Part shown: piece after piece, positions 12,404 to 62,129 of the stretch
How positions within the stretch are numbered: the first letter of the stretch is position 1
How the letters are laid out: each line of letters begins with the position of its first letter
IMG/VR virus record: IMGVR_UViG_3300033747_000022
Span: 62,001 to 126,000 of that record
Length of the DNA stretch: 64,000 bases
Strand: one strand, 5' to 3'
Source: a virus
Notes under the pieces: generated by a model
Databases searched by the model: none
What the model saw: the letters and a program-made list of their open reading frames with translations, nothing else
Told to the model about the DNA's origin: nothing
Translations under genes and position numbers: made by a program

Positions 12404-12488
12404 TGGTGGGAGGAGGAGGATTTGAACCTCCGAACCCTTTGGGACTAGATTTACAATCTAGCGTCTTTAACCACTCGACCACCCTCCC
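12404..12488 (-). tRNA. tRNA-Tyr (GUA)
   Basis: Complete class II tRNA with CCA encoded. The acceptor arms gggaggg and tcctccc pair apart from a G-T wobble, the anticodon loop is TTGTAAA, a long variable arm is present as in bacterial tRNA-Tyr, and the T loop is ttcaaat. First of five intact tRNA genes in a row. The same anticodon recurs in the interrupted tRNA at 40481-40611. Confidence 0.93.
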
Positions 12489-12489
12489 T

Positions 12490-12564
12490 TGGCTGTCCAG
12501 GTTAGATTCGAACTAACGACCTTCTCATTAACAGTGAGCTGCTCTACCGCTGAGCTACAAGACA
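12490..12564 (-). tRNA. tRNA-Asn (GUU)
   Basis: Intact cloverleaf with CCA encoded. The anticodon arm is gctca, CTGTTAA, tgaga; the T arm is gttag, ttcgaat, ctaac. It sits 1 base from the tRNA-Tyr gene and in the same strand. Confidence 0.92.
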
Positions 12565-12568
12565 AAAA

Positions 12569-12645
12569 TGGTAAGGCTATCCGGACTCGCACCGGAAGTC
12601 TTCAGGATGAAAACCTGATGTGTTAACTATTTCCACTATAGCCTC
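12569..12645 (-). tRNA. tRNA-Glu (UUC)
   Basis: Intact tRNA with CCA encoded. Acceptor gaggcta pairs with tagcctt, the anticodon stem tcagg/cctga encloses TTTTCAT, and the T loop is tgcgagt. The D arm is slightly irregular. Confidence 0.88.
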
Positions 12646-12654
12646 TTAAAATTT

Positions 12655-12729
12655 TGGCGGAGATAAAGAGAATCGAACTCTTACTCTATGCTTGACAAGC
12701 ACACGTGCTAACCGTTACACCATACCTCC
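12655..12729 (-). tRNA. tRNA-Asp (GUC)
   Basis: Intact tRNA with CCA encoded. Acceptor ggaggta pairs with tatctcc, the anticodon stem tgtgc/gcata encloses TTGTCAA, and the T loop is tcgattc. A second tRNA with this anticodon, but interrupted, lies at 37592-37710. Confidence 0.92.
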
Positions 12730-12734
12730 ATAAT

Positions 12735-12810
12735 TGGAGCTAACAAAAGGAATCGAACCTTCAACCTGCTCATTACAAGTGAGCTGCTCTGCCAATTGGG
12801 CTATGTTAGC
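12735..12810 (-). tRNA. tRNA-Thr (UGU)
   Basis: Intact tRNA with CCA encoded. Acceptor gctaaca pairs with tgttagc, the anticodon stem gctca/tgagc encloses CTTGTAA, and the T arm is gaagg, ttcgatt, ccttt. Its 5' end lies 3 bases from the stop codon of the zinc microprotein gene, so the tRNAs may be processed from that transcript. Confidence 0.93.
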
Positions 12811-15032: not shown

Positions 15033-16200
15033 CTCCTGTAATGTGATTTCCTGATGTATAAATAAGGCAGGCAGTCAGGATACTGCTTTTCGGGAGCTAC
15101 CCTAGCCATATTTTTTGTTATTAAAAGGGCAAAACTTATCCCCTCTCGATTTACGATGTATAGAAAAACACCCCATTTGTTGCAGGTTCATGTTAATAAA
15201 ATATGGCAATAACCCTAGATACCAAGCCTTAATGCCGCTTTACGCTCCTATATTGCTATATTCACACCCAATTCGTTTTGTACCTACAATAAATATTAAT
15301 AGTGGGTACAAAGGTTTTAAACTTACAAACTTCACACCTTCCTGTGAATTTAAGATTATATGACGGTGATGACGCTTGTGACGGTGGATTTTATATTTTC
15401 TAATGACGCAATGACGCGATGACGGCATTATATTTGATTTTAAATTATAAGCCTTACTTTAACCTTACTTTACTGCTCATCCTCTAGTAAGGTGGCTCCT
15501 TCCCTAAATAGCGGGCGGGAGAGCTATTTTCTTACTAATCTTACCGCAAATTTAAATGTTTATAATATATATCATAATAACTGGCTGGTATCTAAAAAAA
15601 CGGTAAGGTCGGTAAGGTTTTGGCTATAAGCTCTGTCATGACAGTAAGGAGACGTCTTACCGCAAAGAGTAAGATTCTTACTCTTAAAAGTAAGGTTTTT
15701 GCATTTAAAACCTAAAACCCTCCATCACGAAAAAGTATGTCTGACCTTTTAATGCTAAAGCACCGTCATCACCGTCATCACCGTCACAAAGTTTTTTGTC
15801 ATGATAGACGATTTTAAGATTTAATAACTAAAACCTCACGCTTAACTGTTATTTCTCACACTCAACTGTGAGCTTTAGATGACTGAAGTAACAGGGTTTT
15901 TGGCAGTTTCTCACACTTCTCACACTTAAAATTAACTTCATGCTAAATAAATTATCATATATACTCTGAAGTTAAGAATAGCTGTGAGGTGAGTTAATTT
16001 AAATTAAAATTAGAAACAACGCCGTCATCGCGTCATCGCGTCATTACAATAACAAAAGTTCTTTTTCGTGATAGACAGGGTTGTGAAGTAAGGAAGGTGT
16101 GAAGTTATGAAGTTAAGATTATAAAAATAAAGATTGCTTACAAACTAAGAATATGGTAATATAAGGTCAAAGAAAACTAAAAAGGGGTGAATATAAGAAT
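15033..16200. repeat. repeat-rich non-coding region, probable origin or partition site
   Basis: About 1.17 kb without a convincing gene. It contains CGTCATCAC/GTGATGACG arrays (15362-15425, 15762-15790, 16020-16046) in opposite orientations, TAAGG/CCTTA repeats (about 15455-15705), TCACACT repeats (about 15855-15930), and copies of ATCACGAAAAAG/CTTTTTCGTGAT (15722, 16060; also near 17355). This mix of iterons and inverted repeats directly upstream of parA is typical of plasmid centromeres and replication origins. No Rep gene is visible here. Confidence 0.55.
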
Positions 16201-36014: not shown

Positions 36015-36524
36015 ATGAAAGAAATAGAAAAGAAATTTATTGTCAGCAAAAATTATGAGTTTCCTGCTGAATATAAAAGTTATGATATTATGCAAAAGTA
36101 TTTACACATAGACTCTATTTCTGAAATTAGAATCAGACAAAAGCTTCATTTCAACAAGAAAGGAAAGTTTACTAAAAAGACTCAAAAGATAACTATCAAA
36201 GAAGGTAGTGGAGATATCAGAGAAGAAACAGAAATCAGTATCTCGCCATCATTATTTGATAATCTTTGGGAAGTAAACAACAAAAGGGCTATTCATAAAC
36301 TCAGGTATCTAATACCATATAAGGGTAAAATTATAGAAGTTGATGAGTTTCCTTTATATGATAACTTTCCTATTTTTGCTGAAATTGAATTTGACAGTAA
36401 GGAAGAGATGGAAAATTTTGAGTTTCCATACTGGTTTGACAGGGAGACAAAAGTAAAAAACAAGGATATTTTTATGTTTATTAACAGCTATGAGGCTGAT
36501 AAAGATATAAATGACATATTGTAA
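36015..36524 (+). CDS. CYTH-domain phosphohydrolase/cyclase-like protein
   Basis: Start chosen at ATG 36015 after GGGGG. 169 residues. It opens with the CYTH signature MKEIEKKFIV (ExExK) and continues with EIRIRQKL, ITIKEGSG, REETEISI, KLRYLIPYKG and EVDEFP, the alternating charged strands of the triphosphate tunnel. Family members hydrolyse inorganic or organic triphosphates, including RNA 5' triphosphates in some lineages. The substrate is not evident. Confidence 0.82.
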   Translation: MKEIEKKFIVSKNYEFPAEYKSYDIMQKYLHIDSISEIRIRQKLHFNKKGKFTKKTQKITIKEGSGDIREETEISISPSLFDNLWEVNNKRAIHKLRYLIPYKGKIIEVDEFPLYDNFPIFAEIEFDSKEEMENFEFPYWFDRETKVKNKDIFMFINSYEADKDINDIL

Positions 36525-36651
36525 TGAAGGTATGAAGTTAAGAAGCTATATTTCTAGCTCCATATATTCATAAGTTCACAAGAAGCTAAACTAATATCCA
36601 AAAAATAAAAAGAGAGGAATGATAAAAGCTTAGCTAAAAGGAGGATAAAAA

Positions 36652-36834
36652 ATGAAAAATGCAGTTGTAATTTGTAGAACAGAGGACAAAAAGCATCATT
36701 TAATTTTAGAAGAGGGAGAAGTTGTTAGAGTTGTAGGAAGAAGCAAAAATAAAGTAAAAGTAAATACAGAAGATGGTAAAACATTATGGTGTAACTTCAG
36801 AAATTTAAGTGAAAAATTAGTATTTAGGGGTTAA
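36652..36834 (+). CDS. small SH3-like protein
   Basis: 60 residues, ATG after AAAGGAGG. Beta-rich (EEGEVVRVVGRSKNKVKVNTED), KOW/SH3-like in shape. It is the last protein gene before the RNA cluster. The gap 36525-36651 holds a small hairpin and no gene. Confidence 0.5.
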   Translation: MKNAVVICRTEDKKHHLILEEGEVVRVVGRSKNKVKVNTEDGKTLWCNFRNLSEKLVFRG

Positions 36835-36857
36835 GGAAAATTTCAAAGGGGTTAAAA

Positions 36858-36876
36858 GGCCATATTTATTATGGCC
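36858..36876 (+). terminator. hairpin ahead of the RNA-cluster promoter
   Basis: ggccata/tatggcc with a 5-base loop, followed by an AT-rich tract. It probably separates the upstream gene from the RNA cluster. Confidence 0.45.
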
Positions 36877-36901
36877 AGAAATTATATTTATTTTATATTA
36901 T

Positions 36902-36930
36902 TTGAAAAATGTAGTGAAGTATGATATAAT
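36902..36930 (+). promoter_or_regulatory. strong promoter of the RNA cluster
   Basis: TTGAAA, 17 bases, TATAAT, a near-consensus sigma-A promoter. Transcription should start near 36937. The spacer (AATGTAGTGAAGT...) closely resembles the spacer of the promoter at 42496 (AATGAAGTGAAGT...), which drives the RNA ligase operon. Confidence 0.75.
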
Positions 36931-36949
36931 AAACTTAACAGATAAACAA

Positions 36950-37153
36950 GTCATTGGTGGCGGAATAAGTAGACGCTATAATGGTAAGGCATTCGGTGGG
37001 AAACATAATAACCAGAGGGGCATATGCTTACACAATTAAAAGCAGCTCTGCAACATGCGAATGTTCATGTGAGGTGTAAACCCTCACCCATGACATTATA
37101 TATATGCCGGTTCGGGAAACTACAGGTTAGTTACCTGCCCTGCCGGCTCCAAA
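36950..37153 (+). ncRNA. structured RNA of unknown type, first product of the RNA cluster
   Basis: No protein gene fits. The 5' part has a tRNA-Leu-like D arm (TGGCGGAATAAGTAGACGC at 36959). A long-range stem ggcatat/atatgcc (near 37019 and 37109) encloses hairpins at gcag/ctgc, acatg/catgt and gtgagg/cctcac. The 3' end (ACAGG...CCTGC, then GCCGGCTCCA) looks like a T arm with acceptor end, but the 5' acceptor partner is absent. It may be a decayed or rearranged tRNA or another structured RNA. Confidence 0.4.
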
Positions 37154-37160
37154 ATTTAAA

Positions 37161-37245
37161 GGAAGAGTGTCCGAGTGGTTTAAGGAGACAGTTTGCTAAA
37201 CTGTTACCGACAGGTTCAGGGGTTCAAATCCCCTCTCTTCCTCCA
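37161..37245 (+). tRNA. tRNA-Ser (GCU)
   Basis: Intact class II tRNA with CCA encoded. Acceptor ggaagag pairs with ctcttcc, the anticodon stem acagt/actgt encloses TTGCTAA, the T loop is ttcaaat. It is the only uninterrupted tRNA of this cluster. Confidence 0.93.
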
Positions 37246-37251
37246 TTTTTT

Positions 37252-37366
37252 CGGGAGATAGCTCAGCAGGCTAGAGCAGCTAAAATATGTCTTGTATAAG
37301 GTATTAACAGCAATCACATCCCATTAAAGGAGCGTGTCGCAGGTTCGAATCCTGCTCTCCCGGTCA
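37252..37366 (+). tRNA. interrupted tRNA, anticodon uncertain (UUA if spliced as proposed)
   Basis: Acceptor cgggaga pairs with tctcccg; the D arm gctc/gagc and T arm gcagg, ttcgaat, cctgc are perfect. The anticodon arm is broken by an insertion, proposed as 37282-37319 (38 bases): AAAAT, then a 7-bp hairpin (atgtctt/aaggtat), then TAACAGCAATC. Removal gives a 77-base tRNA with anticodon stem gctcc/ggagc and loop CATTAAA. Position 33 would be A instead of U, and the anticodon UUA would read the stop codon UAA, so either the junction or the function is unusual. The 3' end is GTCA, not CCA. Confidence 0.7.
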
Positions 37367-37371
37367 TTTTT

Positions 37372-37586
37372 AGTCGCAGTGATAGTTTTTGGCAATTTAA
37401 ACTATCTTCAAATAAATGCGACAGAATTAAGATTCCTCTACAAAATTGCCAGAGGGCTTAATTCAAAATTAATCTGTCAGCAACATGTAAACAGCCTGGC
37501 TACAATATTAAAAACAAACTGCCAGGCTTAGGAAATACATGGAAACAACTGCCGAGCTCTGTGGGCTAGCTGTTGCGACGGGTTAA
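37372..37586 (+). ncRNA. structured RNA with kissing loops and a CAGCAAC core
   Basis: This interval between two interrupted tRNAs has no gene. It holds: an outer stem gtcgca/tgcgac with inner hairpin gatagttt/aaactatc; a stem gacagAattaa/ttaatctgtc with inner hairpin cctct/agagg; and a third hairpin agcctggc/gccaggct. The loops of the first two hairpins share seven complementary bases (GGCAATT and AATTGCC), a probable kissing interaction. CAGCAAC (37478) follows the second stem at the same place as in the tRNA insertions. Confidence 0.55.
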
Positions 37587-37591
37587 TTTAC

Positions 37592-37710
37592 GGTGAGGTA
37601 GCCAAGATGGAAAGGCTCCGGCGCAAAAAGAAAGTGTGACTAGTTTAGTCACCAACAGCAATTCTTCTATGTCAAGCCGGGATTCGCGGGTTCAACTCCC
37701 GTCCTCACCA
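37592..37710 (+). tRNA. interrupted tRNA-Asp (GUC)
   Basis: Acceptor ggtgagg pairs perfectly with cctcacc; the anticodon stem ccggc/gccggg and the T arm (ttcaact loop) are intact. Between the 5' stem arm (ends 37622) and the loop ATGTCAA (37669-37675) lies an insertion of about 46 bases with hairpin gtgact/agtcac followed by CAACAGCAATT. Its removal leaves 73 bases plus CCA to be added. The same anticodon is present in the intact tRNA at 12655. Confidence 0.85.
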
Positions 37711-37722
37711 ATTACAATTTTT

Positions 37723-37840
37723 CGAAGGGTAGCTCAACTGGTAGAGCAGCTAAAATATATGCTTAGTTTTAAGCGTTAACAGCAATCAATTTTCCTTGAG
37801 GAGGAGCTTGCTGCAGGTTCGAATCCTGCCCCTTCGACCA
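37723..37840 (+). tRNA. interrupted tRNA, anticodon uncertain (GAG if spliced as proposed)
   Basis: Acceptor cgaaggg pairs with cccttcg, CCA is encoded, the D arm gctc/gagc and the T arm gcagg, ttcgaat, cctgc are perfect. The proposed insertion is 37752-37793 (42 bases): AAAAT, a 7-bp hairpin (atgctta/taagcgt), TAACAGCAATC and a T-rich end. Removal gives 76 bases with anticodon stem gctcc/ggagc and loop TTGAGGA. The 5' exon and the start of the insertion are nearly the same as in the tRNA at 37252. Confidence 0.72.
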
Positions 37841-37848
37841 TTTTTTAA

Positions 37849-37971
37849 GGAGAGATTCTCCTAATGGCAAAGGTACCGGCCAAAATATGTTTAGATTAAA
37901 CATTAACAGCAAAAAAAGTGAAAAGCCGGCGGTCGATGACCATGGTGGTTCGAATCCACCACTCTCCACCA
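37849..37971 (+). tRNA. interrupted tRNA, anticodon GAA (Phe), with a long variable arm
   Basis: Acceptor ggagag pairs with ctctcc, CCA is encoded and the T arm ggtgg, ttcgaat, ccacc is perfect. The anticodon stem is ccggc/gccgg. The insertion, proposed as 37882-37918 (37 bases), has AAAAT, a 7-bp hairpin (atgttta/taaacat) and TAACAGCAA. Removal gives loop CTGAAAA, a canonical Phe loop. The variable arm (ggtc/gacc) is of class II, which is odd for Phe, so the true identity is open. Confidence 0.78.
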
Positions 37972-38007
37972 ACTTTAGGAATTAAAGATTAATTTTTTGT
38001 AATTTTT

Positions 38008-38087
38008 AAAGACGGCACACAGCAACCAAACTATTATATAATAAAAGACGAATAAGGCTGACACTTTTTTATCCCTGAGCCGTCTTG
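38008..38087 (+). ncRNA. stand-alone CAGCAACC hairpin element 1
   Basis: The arms aagacggc (38009-38016) and gccgtctt (38079-38086) form an 8-bp stem. ACACAGCAACC follows the 5' arm at once, then about 50 AT-rich bases close the loop. It is the same core as in the tRNA insertions, but the stem is closed from the outside, not by a short loop. Confidence 0.55.
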
Positions 38088-38199
38088 TTATAGATTTTAG
38101 GCACTAGAAAACCTAGTAGGCTTGCCCCTATGGATGAATAGTACCTAATTTTGAAGTAACTCATTGTAATATATAATATTAGTATAGGAGGTGAAGATA

Positions 38200-39321
38200 A
38201 TGATTAAGAAGTTCAAGCCAATCAACAAAGCATATAAATTTAGAATTTATCCTAATCAAGAACAACAAGAGTTAATTGATAAAACAATAGGTTGTAGTCG
38301 ATTCATCTATAATGAATTTCTGGCAAAGTCTAAAGATAATCAATATAAATCTTATTCTAAAAACTCTAAAGAGTTAACTCAACTAAAGAAAGAATATACT
38401 TGGCTTAAAGAAGTAGATTCTATAGCATTACAACAAAGTCTTAAAGACTTAGATAGAGCTTTTAAAAACTTCTTTAGTGGTAAATATAACTTTCCTAAGT
38501 TTAAGTCTAAAAGAAAAGCTAGATTATCTTATCGCACTCAAAAATTTATTAGACCTAGTGGTAGCACTAACATTGAGATTAATGATAATAAAATCAAACT
38601 ACCTAAGCTATCTTGGGTTAGATTCGCTAAATCTAAAGAGGTTAAAGGTAAAATTAATAATGTTACAGTTTCTAAATCTAAAGTAGGCAAATATTATATC
38701 TCAATTAATGTTAGTCAAGTCTTAGTAACTACTGTTAAAGACAATCAAGGTGAATTAGGATTAGATTTGGGTATTAAAGACTTTCTAACTACATCTAATG
38801 GTGAACATATATCTAACCCTAGACACTTATCGAAATATCAAGATAAACTAGCTAAACTACAAAGAAGATTAGCTAAAAAACAGAAATTCTCTAACAATTG
38901 GTATAAACTTAAAAAGAAAATTGCCAAAGTGCATACTAAAATCAAAAATGTAAGATTGGACTTCCTTCACAAATTATCTACTAGATTAGTTAAGGAGAAT
39001 CAACTGCTAGTCATAGAAGATTTAAATGTGAAGGGGATGATTAAAAATTCTAAACTGGCTAAACATATCGCAGATTGTAGCTGGTCTAAGTTTACTACTA
39101 TGCTTGAATATAAAGGAAAATGGTATGACTGCATTTTACACAAAGTAAATCGCTTTTTTGCTAGTAGTCAAACTTGTAATATATGTGGTACTAAAAACCC
39201 TAAAGTCAAAGATTTGTCTGTCAGAGATTGGACTTGTAGCTGTGGTGCAACTCATAACAGAGATACAAATGCTAGTCTAAACCTCTTAAAACAAGGTAAA
39301 TTAGACTTAGGACTTAGATAG
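38200..39321 (+). CDS. tnpB: TnpB, RNA-guided endonuclease
   Basis: Start chosen at ATG 38200 after AGGAGG. 373 residues, usual length. The N-terminal KAYKFRIYPNQEQQELI and CSRFIYNEFL are typical. The RuvC site is complete: LGLDLGIKDF (Asp) near 188, LLVIEDLNV (Glu) near 270 and HNRDTNAS (Asp) near 355. The zinc ribbon is CNICGTKNP and CSCGATHNRD. It cuts DNA under guidance of an RNA from the right end of the element, which helps the element persist. It appears intact. Confidence 0.93.
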   Translation: MIKKFKPINKAYKFRIYPNQEQQELIDKTIGCSRFIYNEFLAKSKDNQYKSYSKNSKELTQLKKEYTWLKEVDSIALQQSLKDLDRAFKNFFSGKYNFPKFKSKRKARLSYRTQKFIRPSGSTNIEINDNKIKLPKLSWVRFAKSKEVKGKINNVTVSKSKVGKYYISINVSQVLVTTVKDNQGELGLDLGIKDFLTTSNGEHISNPRHLSKYQDKLAKLQRRLAKKQKFSNNWYKLKKKIAKVHTKIKNVRLDFLHKLSTRLVKENQLLVIEDLNVKGMIKNSKLAKHIADCSWSKFTTMLEYKGKWYDCILHKVNRFFASSQTCNICGTKNPKVKDLSVRDWTCSCGATHNRDTNASLNLLKQGKLDLGLR

Positions 39322-39462
39322 ATTACATACTGTCGGACTGACAGGAATTTACGCTTTTGGAGAGAGCATAAGACCTAACTTAATCTGATTAAATAATTAG
39401 CTTTAAGTAGGCAATTCTCGTTGAAAAAAGAATCCCCGCAGGCTTGCCTCGGGGTAGGTCAA
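39322..39462 (+). ncRNA. probable omega RNA scaffold of tnpB
   Basis: The 140 bases after the tnpB stop carry hairpins (gtcggactgac, ccccg/cgggg) and end at the right end of the element, as omega RNAs do. The guide would be the 16-20 flanking bases after about 39463. The gap 39466-39578 has no gene. Confidence 0.55.
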
Positions 39463-39578
39463 TAAAGGGCGATATCTTGGTGTTAGTTTATCTTTATGAT
39501 TTTGTTCATTATAATATATTCTTTCGAACTTGCCGGTGCTTTTAAACCCGGTTAATTTTGTATAAAGAGGTGTAAAAA

Positions 39579-40400
39579 TTGTTTATAGCAGAAGTTGGTA
39601 TTAACCACAACGGAAATTTAGAGTATGCCTATGAGTTAATAGATATGGCATATAAAGCTGGAGCAGATGTAGTTAAATTTCAGAAAAGAAACCCTAAAAA
39701 GTGTGTGCCCAAAGACCAGTGGCATAAAAAGAAAAAAACACCGTGGGGTGAGATGGACTATATTGATTATAAATACAGAATGGAATTTGGTTATAGCGAA
39801 TATGTAGCACTGAATGCTTACTGTCACAAGCTGGGAGTTAAATGGACAGCAAGTGTATGGGATATTGAATCTCTTGAATTTCTAACTGATTTTAATGTGC
39901 CGTTCATAAAAATTGCTAGTGCCTCAATCACAGATATGAAGCTTTTAGAAGCTGTAAGAAAGACAGGAATCCCTGTAGTTTTATCCACTGGTATGAGTAC
40001 AGAAGAAGAAATTGATAAAGCAGTTAATGTTTTTGAAGGATATGAAGATAAGTTAAGTATCATGCACTGCAACAGCAGTTATCCATCAGCTGAGAATGAG
40101 CTTGACTTAAGAATAATTGAAAGACTTAAAGAAAAGTATCCTTTAAATATTATAGGTTACAGCGGCCACGAAAAAGGGATTCAACCGACAATAGCAGCTA
40201 AAGTTTTAGGAGCTGAGATAATTGAAAGACATATCACTCTAGATAAGGATATGTGGGGCAGCGACCACAGTGCAAGTCTAGAATACAAAGAGCTAAAAGA
40301 GCTTATCGACAATCTTAACAGAGTTGATAACTGGCTCGGGAGTGATAATATTAAAGTTTATGAATCTGAAGAAAAAGTAAAAGAAAAACTTAGAAAATAA
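39579..40400 (+). CDS. NeuB-type N-acylneuraminate synthase, catalytic barrel only
   Basis: Start TTG 39579 after AGAGGTG. 273 residues cover the TIM barrel: FIAEVGINHNGN at the start, DVVKFQKR near 35, KIASASITD near 109, PVVLSTGMS near 131, YSGHEKGI near 192 and IERHITLDKDMWGSDH near 214. It would condense phosphoenolpyruvate with an N-acyl hexosamine to a sialic acid-like sugar. The usual C-terminal antifreeze-like domain is absent. No other sugar-acid genes are nearby, so the product and role are unclear. Confidence 0.85.
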   Translation: MFIAEVGINHNGNLEYAYELIDMAYKAGADVVKFQKRNPKKCVPKDQWHKKKKTPWGEMDYIDYKYRMEFGYSEYVALNAYCHKLGVKWTASVWDIESLEFLTDFNVPFIKIASASITDMKLLEAVRKTGIPVVLSTGMSTEEEIDKAVNVFEGYEDKLSIMHCNSSYPSAENELDLRIIERLKEKYPLNIIGYSGHEKGIQPTIAAKVLGAEIIERHITLDKDMWGSDHSASLEYKELKELIDNLNRVDNWLGSDNIKVYESEEKVKEKLRK

Positions 40401-40408
40401 AAATCTTA

Positions 40409-40472
40409 AAGGCGCCAACAGCAAACTTACTAAATCAAACTTCCAATTTGAATCCAATAGTAATGGTGCCTT
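40409..40472 (+). ncRNA. stand-alone CAGCAA hairpin element 2, with Gly-type anticodon-like loop
   Basis: The stem aaggcgcc (40409-40416)/ggtgcctt (40465-40472) has 8 pairs with one wobble. AACAGCAA follows the 5' arm directly. The loop contains ttact/agtaa pairing and a perfect 5-bp hairpin tcaaa/tttga around the 7-base loop CTTCCAA, which is the shape and sequence of a Gly (UCC) anticodon loop. Confidence 0.6.
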
Positions 40473-40480
40473 GTATATAT

Positions 40481-40611
40481 GGCAGTATAGCTCAACTGGT
40501 AGAGAGCAAACAAAGTTAATGGGCATAGGCCGGCGGGCCCTTACAGCAAACTACAACTAACAATTCTATGTAAAAGAAAAGACGTAGGTTCAAATCCTGC
40601 TACTGCCACCA
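40481..40611 (+). tRNA. interrupted tRNA-Tyr (GUA)
   Basis: Acceptor ggcagta pairs with tactgcc, CCA is encoded, T arm gtagg, ttcaaat, cctgc. Removing 40505-40560 (56 bases, with a GC-rich hairpin around gggc/gccc and then TTACAGCAAAC) joins GAG to CA and restores the D stem gctc/gagc, position 26 A, anticodon stem ttct/agaa and loop ATGTAAA: a 75-base tRNA-Tyr. The insertion here lies in the D arm, not the anticodon arm. The variable arm is short, unlike the intact tRNA-Tyr at 12404. Confidence 0.78.
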
Positions 40612-40655
40612 TCAGCCGGCAATTAAATTAAGTTAACCAACACTCCTTTCAAATT

Positions 40656-40723
40656 AAAGACAGATGCAGCAACCAATTCTTATGAAGGTATCATAAAACC
40701 CGCGAAATGCGGATACTGTCTTG
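40656..40723 (+). ncRNA. stand-alone CAGCAACC hairpin element 3
   Basis: The stem aagacag (40657-40663)/ctgtctt (40716-40722) is perfect. ATGCAGCAACC follows the 5' arm. The enclosed part contains ccgc/gcgg and a TATCATAAA stretch that resembles a Met-type anticodon loop, though the flanking pairing is weak. Confidence 0.5.
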
Positions 40724-40746
40724 TAGTAGAGTCTTAGGAATTAAAT

Positions 40747-40803
40747 TTAGGCACAATCAGCAACCAAATCAAGGACTGTAAATCCAACAAAATATGTGCC
40801 TAG
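40747..40803 (+). ncRNA. stand-alone CAGCAACC hairpin element 4, circularly permuted, with Tyr-type loop
   Basis: The stem taggcac (40748-40754)/gtgccta (40796-40802) is perfect. AATCAGCAACC follows the 5' arm, and AAAATAT (40789-40795) directly precedes the 3' arm. In the tRNA insertions the order is AAAAT, stem, loop, stem, ACAGCAA; here the same parts occur in permuted order. The payload holds gga-CTGTAAA-tcc, a Tyr (GUA) anticodon loop on a 3-bp stem. It lies 28 bases before the Ro60-like gene. Confidence 0.55.
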
Positions 40804-40830
40804 TATAAAAACAAAAGGGGGATTATTAAT

Positions 40831-42336
40831 ATGTCAAATAAATTTTTAGACGCAATGGAAGATAAAGTTAATTACACAGCAACAGAAAATGGTGCAACAG
40901 CAAAACATACAACTAAAGATAACCTACTCGATTTCTTTGCTCAGGTGGGAGCTTTAAGAAACAGGAATAAAGAAGATATTATAAGGCTTTTTGATAAGGC
41001 TTTAACAGAAGATGACCTTCTAGCAGTAAAAACTCTTTTTTATGCCAGAAATGTTAGGGGTGGGCTAGGAGAAAGAAGAATATTTAGAGTTATTTTAAAA
41101 TATCTGACACAGGTAAAGCCTGAGGTAGTTCTAAAAAACTTAGAACACATACCTCATTATGGTCGATGGGACGATTTATATGCCTTATTTGATACAAGAC
41201 TTGAAGGCTATGCAGCAAACTTTATGAAAGCCCAGTTCTTTAAGGATATCAATTCTGAAAAACCAAGCTTATTAGCAAAATGGCTTAAATCAGAAAATGC
41301 AAGCTCAGACGAAACAAAAAGACTTGCCAGAAAGACCAGAAAACATTTTGAGATGACCGCAAGAGGATATAGAAAAACACTTTCTAAGCTGAGAAAGAAA
41401 ATAGGTGTTGTCGAAAGAAAAATGTCTAATAATGACTGGGAAGATATTGACTACTCATCTGTTCCTTCAAGAGCACAAATGATTTACAATAATGCTTTTG
41501 AAAGACATGACCCTGAAGGCTACCATGAATATATTGAAAATGTTAAGTCTGGAGAGGACAAAATTAATGCCTCAACTTTATATCCTTATGATTTAGTAAG
41601 AAAAGTTATCGGTCATGGTTGGGGCCATTCAGTTTCTGAAAGTGAAAGAGATGTTTTAAATGAGCAGTGGAAAGCATTACCTGATTATATCAATGATAAA
41701 AATGAAAATTCTATTTGCGTTGTAGATACTTCAGGCTCTATGATGAGCTCAGATGGGTTGCCACTTCATATTGCCCTTTCATTAGGATTATATATGGCAG
41801 AAAGAAACTCAGGACCCTTTAAAGATAGGTTTATTACCTTCTCTGCCAGTCCTGATTTAGTAAAAGTAGAAGGCAGTGATTTTGTGCAGAAAATTAAGAA
41901 CATGAGAAGAGCTCACTGGGATATGAATACCGATATCGAAGCTGTATTTAATCTTATTTTAGATACTGCTATAGAAAATCATCTCCATCAGGATGAAATA
42001 CCTCAAAAGTTATACATTATTTCTGATATGGAATTTGACCAGTGTACAAATAATAGTTATGGACTTAGTTCTCGTAACAAAGTAACTAAAACACTTTTTG
42101 AAAAGTTAAAGGAATCATTCAAATATTATGGCTACAAAATGCCGGATTTAGTCTTCTGGAATGTTGAAGCAAGAAATGAAGTTTTTCAGTTTGACAAAGA
42201 CGAAAGAGGATTCCAGCTTGTAAGCGGAGCTTCTCCAGTTGTTTTTGAGCACACAATGAAGGGTGAGTTTGTTTCCGCCTACGACTTGATGCTCGATGTA
42301 ATCACAGACGAACAGTACGATAGAATTACAGTTTAA
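40831..42336 (+). CDS. Ro60-like RNA-binding protein (DUF2828/TROVE plus vWA)
   Basis: 501 residues. The N-terminal half is a helical-repeat ring of the DUF2828/TROVE type: FFAQVGALRNRNKEDIIRLFDKA, VKTLFYARNVRGGLGERRIF, VVLKNLEHIPHYGRWDDLYAL. The C-terminal half is a vWA domain with CVVDTSGSMM near 300 (DxSxS), WDMNTDIEAV near 370 and ISDMEFDQ near 399. Ro60 proteins hold tRNA-like Y RNAs and misfolded RNAs, and in many bacteria their genes sit beside rtcB. Here it directly follows the CAGCAA RNA elements, which are good candidates for its RNA partners. Confidence 0.78.
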   Translation: MSNKFLDAMEDKVNYTATENGATAKHTTKDNLLDFFAQVGALRNRNKEDIIRLFDKALTEDDLLAVKTLFYARNVRGGLGERRIFRVILKYLTQVKPEVVLKNLEHIPHYGRWDDLYALFDTRLEGYAANFMKAQFFKDINSEKPSLLAKWLKSENASSDETKRLARKTRKHFEMTARGYRKTLSKLRKKIGVVERKMSNNDWEDIDYSSVPSRAQMIYNNAFERHDPEGYHEYIENVKSGEDKINASTLYPYDLVRKVIGHGWGHSVSESERDVLNEQWKALPDYINDKNENSICVVDTSGSMMSSDGLPLHIALSLGLYMAERNSGPFKDRFITFSASPDLVKVEGSDFVQKIKNMRRAHWDMNTDIEAVFNLILDTAIENHLHQDEIPQKLYIISDMEFDQCTNNSYGLSSRNKVTKTLFEKLKESFKYYGYKMPDLVFWNVEARNEVFQFDKDERGFQLVSGASPVVFEHTMKGEFVSAYDLMLDVITDEQYDRITV

Positions 42337-42850: not shown

Positions 42851-42854
42851 TTTG

Positions 42855-43772
42855 ATGGATAAAGATAAGTTAGAGGAATTAAGAGAGTACAATAAAATTT
42901 ATATTTTAGGCAGTAGTAGCAATCAAGAGATTACAAATTACAAAGAAGATGAAATTGTAATTGAAGAAAAAATTGACGGCAGTAACTTTAGGTTCTGGAG
43001 AGAAGGAGACAGGATTGTATATAGTTCCAGAAAAGTTAAAGATGTCAGACCTCGTGATGGATGGGGCAAACAGATTGAATACCTAAATAAAAAGCTTGAT
43101 GTAAATGCTCTTGGCAGAGATATTATTTATGTCGGAGAGGCAATGAAAAAACACATAGTAAATTATGATTTTGATAATTATCCACCATTTATAGGGTTTG
43201 ACCTTCTGGATAAAGAAACTGGAATGCCACTTGATTATAAAGTCGCCAAAAAGACTTTTGAAAGTCTGGGTTTAGAATTTGTAAATATCTTATTTGAGGG
43301 AACAATGGAAGAATATCTTGGGATGGACAGAGATAAACTTTTAGAAATTTCTAAGTACAACTCAAAAAAGCCTGAAGGTTATGTTATTAAAAATTATAAC
43401 AGGTTAAGCCAATACAATGAGCCTCTATTTGCCAAAGTTTTAAATGATGAGTATTTGGAAAGACAAAAAGCTAAAGCTAAAAAGCCAAAGCCTAAAGAAA
43501 CAGACACTCCTTTAGCAGTTGAGCTTTATGTAAATGAGGCGAGAATTAAAAAGATGATAGCTAAAATGGTTGTTGATGAAGGACATAAACTTGAAAGAAC
43601 GCTAATGCATAAGCTTATCCCGAGAGTTATCAAGGATTTTTTAAGAGAAAATATTCTTGAAATCTATGAGGATAATAGAATAAAAGATGTAAACTTTAAT
43701 ATTCTACACAAAGAAGTTCCAAAAAGATGTATTAAAGTTTTGGATAAGATGATTGAAAGTAATGCATTCTAA
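42855..43772 (+). CDS. Rnl2-like RNA ligase
   Basis: Start chosen at ATG 42855 after GGAGTG. 305 residues. The nucleotidyl-transfer motifs are all present: EEKIDGSNFRFW (motif I, Lys is AMP-bound) near 38, YVGEAMK near 97, GFDLLDKETG (IIIa) near 115, PEGYVIKNY (IV) near 175 and LFAKVLNDEY (V) near 193. A helical C-terminal domain follows. Rnl2 enzymes seal 3'-OH and 5'-phosphate ends at nicks in RNA, often to repair cleaved tRNAs. Confidence 0.88.
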   Translation: MDKDKLEELREYNKIYILGSSSNQEITNYKEDEIVIEEKIDGSNFRFWREGDRIVYSSRKVKDVRPRDGWGKQIEYLNKKLDVNALGRDIIYVGEAMKKHIVNYDFDNYPPFIGFDLLDKETGMPLDYKVAKKTFESLGLEFVNILFEGTMEEYLGMDRDKLLEISKYNSKKPEGYVIKNYNRLSQYNEPLFAKVLNDEYLERQKAKAKKPKPKETDTPLAVELYVNEARIKKMIAKMVVDEGHKLERTLMHKLIPRVIKDFLRENILEIYEDNRIKDVNFNILHKEVPKRCIKVLDKMIESNAF

Positions 43773-60492: not shown

Positions 60493-60873
60493 ATGAAAAC
60501 CAAAAAGTTTGATGATATATTTTACAGAGATAAACTTGCTGATGAGATAGCAAATTCTAGAATTGAAATGAGCGGAGATGACCATGAAGAAGGTTCAAAT
60601 TTATGGGGTGTAGAAATTCTTGTTGACGGAGCTTTGGGACAGTTTAAAACACAGGCTCTACTTGATATTTTCACAGAAGAAGGACTGACAGAAGAAGAAT
60701 ATAAAAAAGACACCTTTAAATACATGGACGAGTGGACTTTATATATCAGACAGGATGTTGAAGAAATGCTCAATGAAGAAATGTCTGAACACTTAGAAGA
60801 AGAGGAGTTTCTTGTTTTAGAACCGGGAGATTCAGGAGATATGTGGATAGCATTACAGAAAGGTGATTTTTAA
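60493..60873 (+). CDS. unknown acidic protein
   Basis: Start chosen at ATG 60493 after GGAGGG. 126 residues, very acidic. Its stop codon overlaps the ATG of rtcB by one base, so its translation is coupled to RtcB. Confidence 0.55.
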   Translation: MKTKKFDDIFYRDKLADEIANSRIEMSGDDHEEGSNLWGVEILVDGALGQFKTQALLDIFTEEGLTEEEYKKDTFKYMDEWTLYIRQDVEEMLNEEMSEHLEEEEFLVLEPGDSGDMWIALQKGDF

Positions 60874-62129
60874 TGTACACTTTTAATGGTTTATATACAG
60901 GCTTGCCTGTTAAAGTCTGGATTGATGAAAGTGAAGATTTAGATGATAACACATTTAAAGAAGCAGTAGAAATATCAAAGCTCCCATACGCTAAATCACA
61001 CATAGCATTGATGCCTGATGTACACGCTACGGGCTACCATATGCCAGTTGGCGGGGTTTTAGCTACAAAGGATGTTATAGTACCTGATGCAGTCTCGAAC
61101 GATATAGGGTGCGGTGTCGCCTTTATACAGACAGATATTGAGGCCTGCTTTATGCAAACAACACACATGGATTCAGGAACAGTTGCTCAGGAACTGGTTG
61201 GGTCAATTATGAGAGATTTACCAACAGGATTTCAGCACTGCAAAAAAGAAGAAAACAAAGATAACATGGAGCTTCTAAATCTAATTAATAATTTAAACTA
61301 TGGTGGAGATATTGAAGAAAAACCTCTTTTAATGGAAGCTGTCATGGAGTCTATGGAAATTGTTGGAAGTCTAGGAGGTGGCAACCACTTCGTTGAGCTA
61401 CAGGAAAACAAAGAGGGTAATCTTGCAATTATGATTCACACCGGCTCCAGAAGTGTTGGCGCTAAAATAAACTCTCATTTTAGTAAGTTAGCAAAAAGTT
61501 TAAATAAAAAATGGTATGTTGATGTTTTATCTGATGATGTAACAATGCCCTTTTTACCACTCGATAGTGATGAGGGTCAGGAATATATGAAATTCATGAA
61601 TTTTGCCTTAAAAGTTGCTGAGTTAAATAGAGATAAAATTATGGATTTAGTTCTAAATAAGACTATTGATTTACTTAAAAAAAGAGGTCTTATTGATAAT
61701 TATAAAATTACAAGAAGATTAAATGTCCACCACAATTATGCTGCCTATGAAAATGTGAACGGTGTTAACTACATGGTGCATAGGAAAGGAGCTGTGCGGG
61801 CCAGAGGTACAGATATGGTGCCTATTCCAGGAGCAATGGGTTCATCTTCCTTTATTGCTCAGGGTCTTGGGAATGATGCTTCATTCAAGTCCTGCAGCCA
61901 TGGAGCCGGGAGAACTCACACCAGAACTGCAGCCAAAGAAGAATATTCAGTGCAAGAGGTTATGGAAGATTTAAAAGAAAAGAATGTTGTACTTGGTAAA
62001 ACTAATAAAAAAGATGTTGCAGAAGAATACATGAAGGCATATAAAGACATTCATCAGGTTATGGAAAATCAAAAAGATTTAGTATCCGTGATTGATGAAC
62101 TAAAAACTATTGCAGTTATTAAAGGTTAG
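60873..62129 (+). CDS. rtcB: RtcB 3'-phosphate RNA ligase
   Basis: 418 residues. All catalytic motifs are present: LMPDVHATGYHMPVGGV near 46, SNDIGCGVAF (metal-binding Cys) near 75, LGGGNHFVELQ near 170, MIHTGSRSVGAK near 192, VHHNYAAYE near 286, VHRKGAVRARG near 303, GAMGSSSF near 320 and CSHGAGRTHTR (guanylylated His) near 341. RtcB joins RNA 2',3'-cyclic-phosphate or 3'-phosphate ends to 5'-OH ends and is the tRNA-splicing ligase of archaea and animals. In a phage with interrupted tRNAs it is the prime candidate for joining their exons; repair of nuclease-cut tRNAs is the alternative. Confidence 0.95.
   Translation: MYTFNGLYTGLPVKVWIDESEDLDDNTFKEAVEISKLPYAKSHIALMPDVHATGYHMPVGGVLATKDVIVPDAVSNDIGCGVAFIQTDIEACFMQTTHMDSGTVAQELVGSIMRDLPTGFQHCKKEENKDNMELLNLINNLNYGGDIEEKPLLMEAVMESMEIVGSLGGGNHFVELQENKEGNLAIMIHTGSRSVGAKINSHFSKLAKSLNKKWYVDVLSDDVTMPFLPLDSDEGQEYMKFMNFALKVAELNRDKIMDLVLNKTIDLLKKRGLIDNYKITRRLNVHHNYAAYENVNGVNYMVHRKGAVRARGTDMVPIPGAMGSSSFIAQGLGNDASFKSCSHGAGRTHTRTAAKEEYSVQEVMEDLKEKNVVLGKTNKKDVAEEYMKAYKDIHQVMENQKDLVSVIDELKTIAVIKG

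Follow-up and report, generated by a model that had tools for sequence, protein, structure and literature searches.

A 64,000-nucleotide stretch of the virus record IMGVR_UViG_3300033747_000022 (positions 62001-126000 of 203,584 bases; the window) carries five tRNA-like genes, T1 to T5, each interrupted by a short insert that contains a hairpin, P1, and the sequence ACAGCAA. A sequence-only reading of the window had reported these inserts as a distinct, very small class of tRNA intron. The observation is correct and larger than first described, and the intron class is not its best reading: the same module also closes tRNA-free RNAs, permuted tRNAs and acceptor-attached linear tRNAs, it is linked to a gene for a Ro60-like protein, and the interrupted and permuted tRNAs often lack decoding features. 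On balance we lean towards the inserts being modules of Y-type RNAs of a phage Ro particle, which would display mimics of tRNAs or anticodon arms and perhaps serve as decoys for anticodon nucleases.

Interrupted tRNA-like genes and stand-alone elements in the window

All five tRNA-like genes with a hairpin and ACAGCAA insert were borne out (Table 1). T1, T2, T3 and T5 were recognised by the Rfam tRNA model as tRNAs with long insertions; T4 was not listed by this model and was detected by a custom scan for T-arm, acceptor and D-arm together with hand reading. ARAGORN, run on the window, reported none of the five. The halves of T2 and T4 were joined by hand because automatic junction choice gave poor solutions, the insert lying in the loop and T4 having a long variable arm. 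By hand reading the inserts are 37-54 nt long, and AAAAUAU precedes the P1 hairpin in three of them. Normal loops with U33 had been proposed for Asp, Phe and Tyr genes; the loops are as described, and only Asp (T2) sits on a body of the class expected for its joined anticodon, the single such case among T1-T5. In bacteria a long variable arm characterises the tRNAs for Leu, Ser and Tyr.

Four stand-alone elements, E3 to E6, share the module. In each of them the two P1 arms enclose a 57-79-nt RNA built as AAGRCRC-ACAGCAA...GYGYCUUG; this is a circular permutation of the T1-T5 insert, in which the P1 loop is closed instead. The module consensus is a stem of about 7-8 bp, AAGRYRC/GYRYCUUG, flanked by ACAGCAA. 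E3-E6 and T1-T5 all lie upstream of the Ro60-like gene. Across the intergenic stretches of at least 90 nt in the whole record, CAGCAA occurs on the + strand at nine sites, six of them within 37656-40758. No known ribozyme, including group I and II introns, matched in Rfam, and none was recognised in 36500-41000 at E values up to 1, in agreement with the earlier statement that group I and II introns do not fit.

Two further candidates, E1 and E2 (37366-37535), were discarded, the A before CAGCAA being missing and P1 not clear. The T1-T2 gap around them (37366-37590) is noncoding, folds at -70 kcal/mol and carries TCAGCAAC at 37477; its membership of the element family is unconvincing.

The module in related loci and its link to the Ro60-like gene

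Relatives were collected as 112 IMG/VR loci (numbered L) fetched by protein: 2 with the window protein, 80 with a three-relative alignment (the best 80 of 490 confirmed) and 30 with a relative from L018; a few are repeats of one contig, such as L018 and L103. In the noncoding DNA of these loci CAGCAA was the top of all 4096 hexamers by count beside a 7-bp stem arm (177 of 270, compared with 12% over all hexamers). The P1 arms, of which there are 30 distinct four-base versions, covaried in 98 of 151 sites against 7.6 ± 2.5 when re-dealt (maximum 16 in 500 shuffles). The shared parts thus look selected, as had been suggested. Loci L133-L287 were fetched with the pattern AAGACAC..ACAGCAA, which biases the position profile and the count of 460 collected closing-stem elements towards that pattern; the covariation and hexamer tests were therefore restricted to the 112 protein-fetched loci.

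Among the linear interrupted tRNAs with CAGCAA, 41 of 55 carry a 5-9-bp P1 hairpin immediately 5' of it, and the outer stem end reads [CU]U[UA]G in 27 of these 41, with 4.2 expected from shuffled letters. The varying insertion point seen between the window genes extends to many phages, in which the module recurs at differing tRNA positions. The best linear junctions run from 26/27 to 33/34, 28/29 being the commonest; one at 37/38 (L042 3711) is a poor fit with a 2-bp stem. Judged by position, the linear junctions do not correspond to the archaeal and eukaryal type of insert, which follows position 37 at a bulge-helix-bulge.

A protein-blind search with the motif pattern gave 81 viral and 74 bacterial-genome stretches, the genomes by title mostly Firmicutes. 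A Ro-like gene lay within the fetched DNA at 46 of 80 viral loci (one, L213, being left out of this count) and 54 of 74 genome loci, so that the elements, like Y RNAs, are encoded next to a Ro gene. At the 100 Ro-bearing loci the nearest exact-pattern element was on the strand of the gene in 99, upstream of it in 89 and within 500 nt in 82. Such placement would suit a cis-acting leader, bound at its stems by the Ro-like protein for control of that protein's message or of nearby tRNAs. This explanation is very improbable, as the arrays run through tRNA clusters and within tRNA genes, the exact anticodon loops inside elements would be unneeded by a leader, and elements lie downstream of the gene in phages nataliec, Samty and S-CoN_Ph14.

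Clear elements were present beside the Ro-like gene in seven of ten named phages examined: Bacillus FADO and vB_BcoS-136, Listeria A511, E. coli nataliec, M. smegmatis Samty, Campylobacter CP30A and Staphylococcus S-CoN_Ph14. Staphylococcus phage Alsa_4 has variant elements, ACAGCCAA/ACAGCUAA. A 20-base pattern of the T-type insert, searched in viral contigs, gave four matches, none inside a tRNA, which were judged to be chance or coding. In phage A511 a full-length match to ROOL RNA (L289 2004-2555; 87.5 bits, the cut-off being 99.1) also lies in the tRNA region, next to the Ro-like gene. At L230 and L275 (Clostridium tertium and C. gasigenes) the Ro-like gene and elements are flanked by a YaaH-family gene on one side and a phage-type integrase on the other, perhaps as a mobile island.

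The Ro60-like protein and comparison with Y RNAs

The protein encoded downstream of the elements was modelled with AlphaFold2 from 71 sequences (pLDDT, the predicted local distance difference test, 92.9). The model predicts a Ro60 fold, with the hallmark ring of HEAT repeats and vWA domain, and it aligned nearly full length with Xenopus Ro60 (1yvr; Z 19.6, root-mean-square deviation 4.0, 419 aligned residues), followed by Ro60 of phage phiLo (9l5y, Z 13.6) and D. radiodurans Rsr (2nvo, Z 11.7); other vWA domains ranked lower, with Z below 10. Foldseek likewise matched the model to Ro60 with an E value of 2e-6. Residues D299, S301 and S303 of the vWA metal site DxSxS are nearly invariant across the 71 homologues. 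Pfam assigned DUF2828 and DUF7788 to all 71 and vWA_Ro60 to three, with TROVE not listed at an E value of 0.001. The protein is present in 682 of 50,697 GenBank phage records, and two of the mycobacteriophage records listed annotate it as Ro-like. TROVE proteins of jumbo phages have been noted before (PMC7824862), in passages that do not name the RNA motif or its anticodon-arm content. The papers retrieved that mention DUF2828 were, by title, all on plants. An earlier survey of bacterial Y RNAs may list mycobacteriophage members. In a literature search that covered subscription papers and preprints thinly, neither the motif nor anticodon arms in Y RNAs were named in the titles or opening abstract lines of the matches listed.

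RtcB was found in the same stretch at 12 of 74 genome loci, 11 of them with the Ro-like gene (for example in Ruminococcus flavefaciens and Anaerocolumna). A Ro-like gene accompanied by RtcB is also what known bacterial Ro/Y RNA repair operons contain, as described in passages of PMC7790460. The predicted Ro60 fold and this gene company together make the elements most simply Y RNAs of this Ro clade. The shared stretches also fit a different role, in which the displayed arms are sensors or baits for RNA repair, meant for cutting, whose cut ends would recruit or activate RtcB or RNA ligase via the Ro-like protein; the Salmonella rtc operon is induced by tRNA fragments, according to passages of PMC7790460. 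We give this role little credence, since RtcB occurs in only three of 36 chosen phage records.

The nearest known relative is YrlA (RF02553), which with Ro60/Rsr adjoins a Ro-fold protein gene, sometimes near RtcB, and in which a stem closes a permuted tRNA-like domain of T-arm, acceptor and D-arm. The permuted subset of elements has this arrangement, and T1-T5 and E3-E6 do not. Permuted elements matched the YrlA model of Rfam at 48.1 bits (L111, E value 9.5e-8), 39.8 (L089), 37.9 (Samty), 35.4 (L107) and 32.9 (L120), the best remaining below the gathering cut-off of 69 bits; partial matches with E values of 1e-7 to 2e-3 were obtained at four of six loci in one set and one of five in another. 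The sole match in the window (24.7 bits) spans two tRNAs. The phage RNAs differ from YrlA in that ACAGCAA and the Ro-binding stem lie outside the match, anticodon arms are retained or occur by themselves, and linear tRNAs also harbour the module.

Bare anticodon arms

Most closing-stem elements contain no tRNA, and some of these carry an anticodon stem-loop alone. Of 334 non-redundant interiors lacking any T-loop motif, 39, drawn from 38 loci, contained a 5-bp hairpin with a 7-nt loop identical to the anticodon loop of a normal tRNA of the same loci, against a shuffled mean of 1.2 and maximum of 3. A first, looser filter, which recognised an enclosed tRNA by a 5-bp T-arm and let a few tRNA-like interiors with a 4-bp T-arm pass (L126 5434 and L036 3789), had given 44 of 364 (shuffled 1.2, maximum 5) and no reversed loops; stricter recounts gave 40 of 352 and the 39 of 334 above. 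Removal of near-identical interiors had reduced the set from 392 to 364, and before it the count was 52 of 392, compared with 0-7 among about 377 other noncoding windows taken from these loci. Loops of 7 nt were in excess (174, against 80 shuffled), those of 4-6 and 8-11 nt reaching 1.1-1.6 times the shuffles.

The commonest loop was CUUUUAA of Lys(UUU), which makes up 15 of 43 in the strict set compared with 25 of 410 normal tRNAs (P = 3e-7), followed by Asn(GUU) and Pro(UGG). Two arms occur together in some elements, for example L110 5433 and L113 4579 (Pro and Lys) and L105 5451 (Pro and Asn). By eye, the Ser(GCU) loop CUGCUAA, borne on a perfect 5-bp stem, is present in elements of both Samty and CP30A. 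Also by eye, the apparently orthologous elements L086 3888 and L099 3880 have similar anticodon stems with the loops UUGAUAA and CUAAAAA, as if retargeted.

Display of tRNA mimics or splicing

If the inserts belong to Y-type RNAs, each would be a Ro-docking module whose partner is the adjacent Ro60-like protein (phrog_850, DUF2828/DUF7788). The module takes four circularly permuted forms: a hairpin set into a linear tRNA body at its anticodon arm (T1-T5), a stem closing a permuted tRNA, a stem closing a linear tRNA, and a stem closing a short RNA, in some cases with one or two bare anticodon stem-loops (E3-E6 being closing-stem elements). The RNAs would stay unspliced and be held by the Ro-like ring as ribonucleoproteins displaying tRNA or anticodon-arm mimics unfit for translation. 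The mimics may then compete for host enzymes that attack tRNAs in infection, most likely anticodon nucleases.

After removal of identical sequences, 42 permuted tRNA-like cases with CAGCAA were counted, some of them doubtful, and most of the 460 closing-stem elements enclosed no tRNA. The acceptor is capped with 3-5 nt in 22 of the 42 permuted cases. A linear-order tRNA attached at its acceptor end was enclosed in 11 of 460 elements by rule, some unconvincing; L141 1905, L148 9992 and L119 6071 are clear, and L290 at 1444 is a further case. Because these tRNAs are attached by the acceptor, splicing could not yield a tRNA from them.

The second-ranked explanation, possible but unlikely in our view, is that the module is an intron, cut from the anticodon arm with the halves ligated by a phage or host ligase; permuted RNAs would be circularised and later opened at the acceptor, and the Ro-like protein would aid folding or processing. 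The results that speak for it weigh against unspliced display. Joining the halves gave a full anticodon stem in 34 of 54 linear cases (8.5 shuffled) and 25 of 41 permuted ones (6.1 ± 1.9, maximum 12, in 200 shuffles), well above chance, and this supports the earlier reading in part. In many cases the joined loop has a canonical form (CUUGUAA, CUGGUAA, CUUUUAA), which a spliced tRNA would need, and the joined products can be aligned with uninterrupted tRNAs from other phages, the best of them gap-free at 84-85%. With junctions of the full-stem cases chosen blind to the loop, purine 37 was present in 33 of 36 linear and 24 of 25 permuted cases and U33 in 27 of 36 and 17 of 25; five more (L049, L055, L069, L073 and L145) gain U33 with the junction at 33/34. 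RtcB and an RNA ligase are both encoded by the phage of the window. A three-way junction in the unspliced RNA would account for the stem pairing, less simply for the inserts within the loop (T2, T4 and the five cases at 33/34).

Further points on the same side concern the Ro link and the likeness to Y RNAs. The Ro-like gene was not in the fetched stretch (1.6-15 kb) at 34 of 80 viral and 20 of 74 genome loci; in Salmonella phage PHA46 no copy of the motif was seen next to the Ro-like gene, and Vibrio VH7D offered a single doubtful 6-bp candidate. No YrlA match was obtained in L288, L290 or four of five further loci, nor in L018 at E values up to 5, and in the one alignment inspected (L111) the Ro-binding stem of YrlA does not align with P1, the match resting on the tRNA-like domain. 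An exact anticodon loop was not seen in 320 of the 364 interiors without a T-arm.

Splicing is made less probable by the state of the tRNAs, in which U33, CCA and agreement of anticodon and body are often lost. U33 was present in 44 of 61 full-stem cases with junctions set at 27-31, compared with 400 of 410 normal tRNAs of the same loci (P = 3e-10), and in 49 of 61 once the five junctions are moved to 33/34 (P = 2e-6 against normal). CCA is encoded in 9 of 55 linear and 6 of 42 permuted cases, compared with 309 of 507 normal tRNAs. A34 other than ACG was found in 8 of 61 and 1 of 410 normal tRNAs. A Leu, Ser or Tyr anticodon on a short-variable-loop body was found in 10 of 61 and 7 of 410, the variable-loop class being read from the joined 5-bp stem and possibly wrong for single genes. 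The enclosed linear tRNAs, moreover, offer nothing to splice, and tRNA is absent from most elements. Among the 36 chosen records RtcB was found in 3, RNA_ligase in 17 (14 over the cut-off) and the Rnl1 type in 4, and three records of more than 110 kb (G004, G008 and G027) encode none of these ligases, although records may be fragments; strict dependence on a phage ligase was not seen among the 36. ARAGORN gave no usable evidence on joined halves, since wrong-partner joins pass almost equally (39-44 of 55 linear and 30-35 of 42 permuted, compared with 44 and 36 for true joins). A broader version, in which the module is a new splicing unit of about 40 nt, of phages and Firmicutes, working with the Ro60-like protein to give spliced tRNAs from the linear forms, circles opened to tRNAs from the permuted forms and a large set of small circular RNAs from the tRNA-free forms, some showing anticodon arms, appears quite unlikely.

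Permuted tRNA genes of algae and one archaeal case likewise place the 3' half before the 5' half, and joining gives a cloverleaf; the reversed phage halves join to a full anticodon stem at the frequency given above. The phage junctions differ in carrying P1 and ACAGCAA, and traits needed by a functional tRNA are frequently weakened. According to PMC3978253, the algal and archaeal genes are thought to be processed via a bulge-helix-bulge junction. In the permuted elements L055, L069 and L073 (near 2023, 2843 and 3258) the 5' arm of the anticodon stem (AAAGA in L055) is repeated in the head of the other half, so that two alternative anticodon stems could form.

The decoy part of the Y-type reading recalls the tRNAs of phage T5 that act against AriB of PARIS. 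The bare arms are mostly of Lys(UUU), Asn(GUU) and Pro(UGG), and interrupted and permuted tRNAs are often of Thr (13 of 61). Phage T5 supplies cut-resistant tRNA variants, whereas the module RNAs are Ro-linked and, as encoded, unable to decode. Should the display of mimics be correct, the Ro60-fold phage protein gains a candidate RNA partner with a readable motif, which bears on the role of bacterial Ro60 and Y RNAs and on the reason for tRNA mimicry by Y RNAs. The bare arms come mostly from tRNAs known as targets of defence nucleases. Y RNAs as decoys or baits are one possibility raised for YrlA in passages of PMC7790460, and this idea becomes directly testable in laboratory phages.

Setting in the phage record

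The features of the region are collected in Table 1. DNA of the window matched 28 GenBank phage records, and among the matches listed (20) all fell in tnpB. A TnpB (OrfB_IS605) gene at 38191-39321 lies inside the cluster of tRNAs and elements, directly 3' of E3.

Table 1 Features of the tRNA region, elements and associated genes (positions in the window; elements read from sequence and fold where marked)
Feature	Position	Strand	Description
tRNA region	37161-40611	+	1 normal tRNA-Ser and 5 insert-bearing tRNA-like genes
T1, tRNA-like body and module	37252..37363	+	Rfam tRNA 43.7 bits; joined loop CAUUAAA, anticodon UUA, A33 (no U33)
T1 insert	37281..37318	+	38 nt; P1 37287-37304 (AUGUCUU-GUAU-AAGGUAU), ACAGCAA 37307-37313
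T2, tRNA-like body	37592..37710	+	Rfam tRNA 44.3 bits; hand-joined loop GUGUCAA, Asp GUC; insert at 32/33
T2 insert	37624..37669	+	46 nt; P1 37636-37652, ACAGCAA 37655-37661
T3, tRNA-like body	37723..37837	+	Rfam tRNA 47.4 bits; joined loop UUGAGGA, anticodon GAG, short-variable-loop body
T3 insert	37751..37792	+	42 nt; P1 37759-37776, ACAGCAA 37779-37785
T4, long-variable-arm tRNA-like body	37849..37971	+	hand-joined loop CUGAAAA, anticodon GAA; insert at 32/33
T4 insert	37882..37918	+	37 nt; P1 37887-37903, ACAGCAA 37906-37912
E3, stand-alone element	38009..38087	+	P1 AAGACGGC/GCCGUCUU with ACACAGCAACC; sequence, fold
E4, stand-alone element	40409..40473	+	P1 AAGGCGCC/GGUGCCUU, AACAGCAA; sequence, fold
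E4 inner 5-bp hairpin, Gly(UCC) anticodon loop	40435-40451	+	UCAAA CUUCCAA UUUGA
T5, tRNA-like body	40481..40611	+	Rfam tRNA 43.6 bits (40481-40608); joined loop AUGUAAA, anticodon GUA, short-variable-loop body
T5 insert, 5' of anticodon arm	40509..40562	+	54 nt; GC-rich hairpin 40521-40540, ACAGCAA 40543-40549
E5, stand-alone element	40657..40723	+	P1 AAGACAG/CUGUCUU, GCAGCAACC; sequence, fold
E5 inner 5-bp hairpin	40680-40696	+	7-nt loop AAGGUAU
E6, stand-alone element	40747..40803	+	P1 UUAGGCAC/GUGCCUAg, UCAGCAACC, AAAAUAU 5' of 3' arm
E6 inner hairpin, only 3 bp, Tyr(GUA) loop CUGUAAA	40773-40785	+	sequence, fold
Ro60-like protein gene	40831..42336	+	phrog_850; DUF2828 and DUF7788/vWA
RNA ligase (PF09414)	42852..43772	+	downstream of Ro-like gene
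RtcB-family RNA ligase	60873..62129	+	18 kb off

Five normal tRNAs (Tyr, Asn, Glu, Asp and Thr) form a second cluster at 12404-12810 on the - strand; since it contains Tyr and Asp, T5 and T2 are duplicates of isoacceptors that the phage already has. An int-alpA RNA (Rfam, 44.7 bits) lies at 15049-15112, also on the - strand. The stretch before tRNA-Ser (36950-37156) is noncoding, structured and tRNA-like (GGUGGCGGAAUAAGUAGACGC..., later GGUUCGG), with no Rfam match at E values up to 1.

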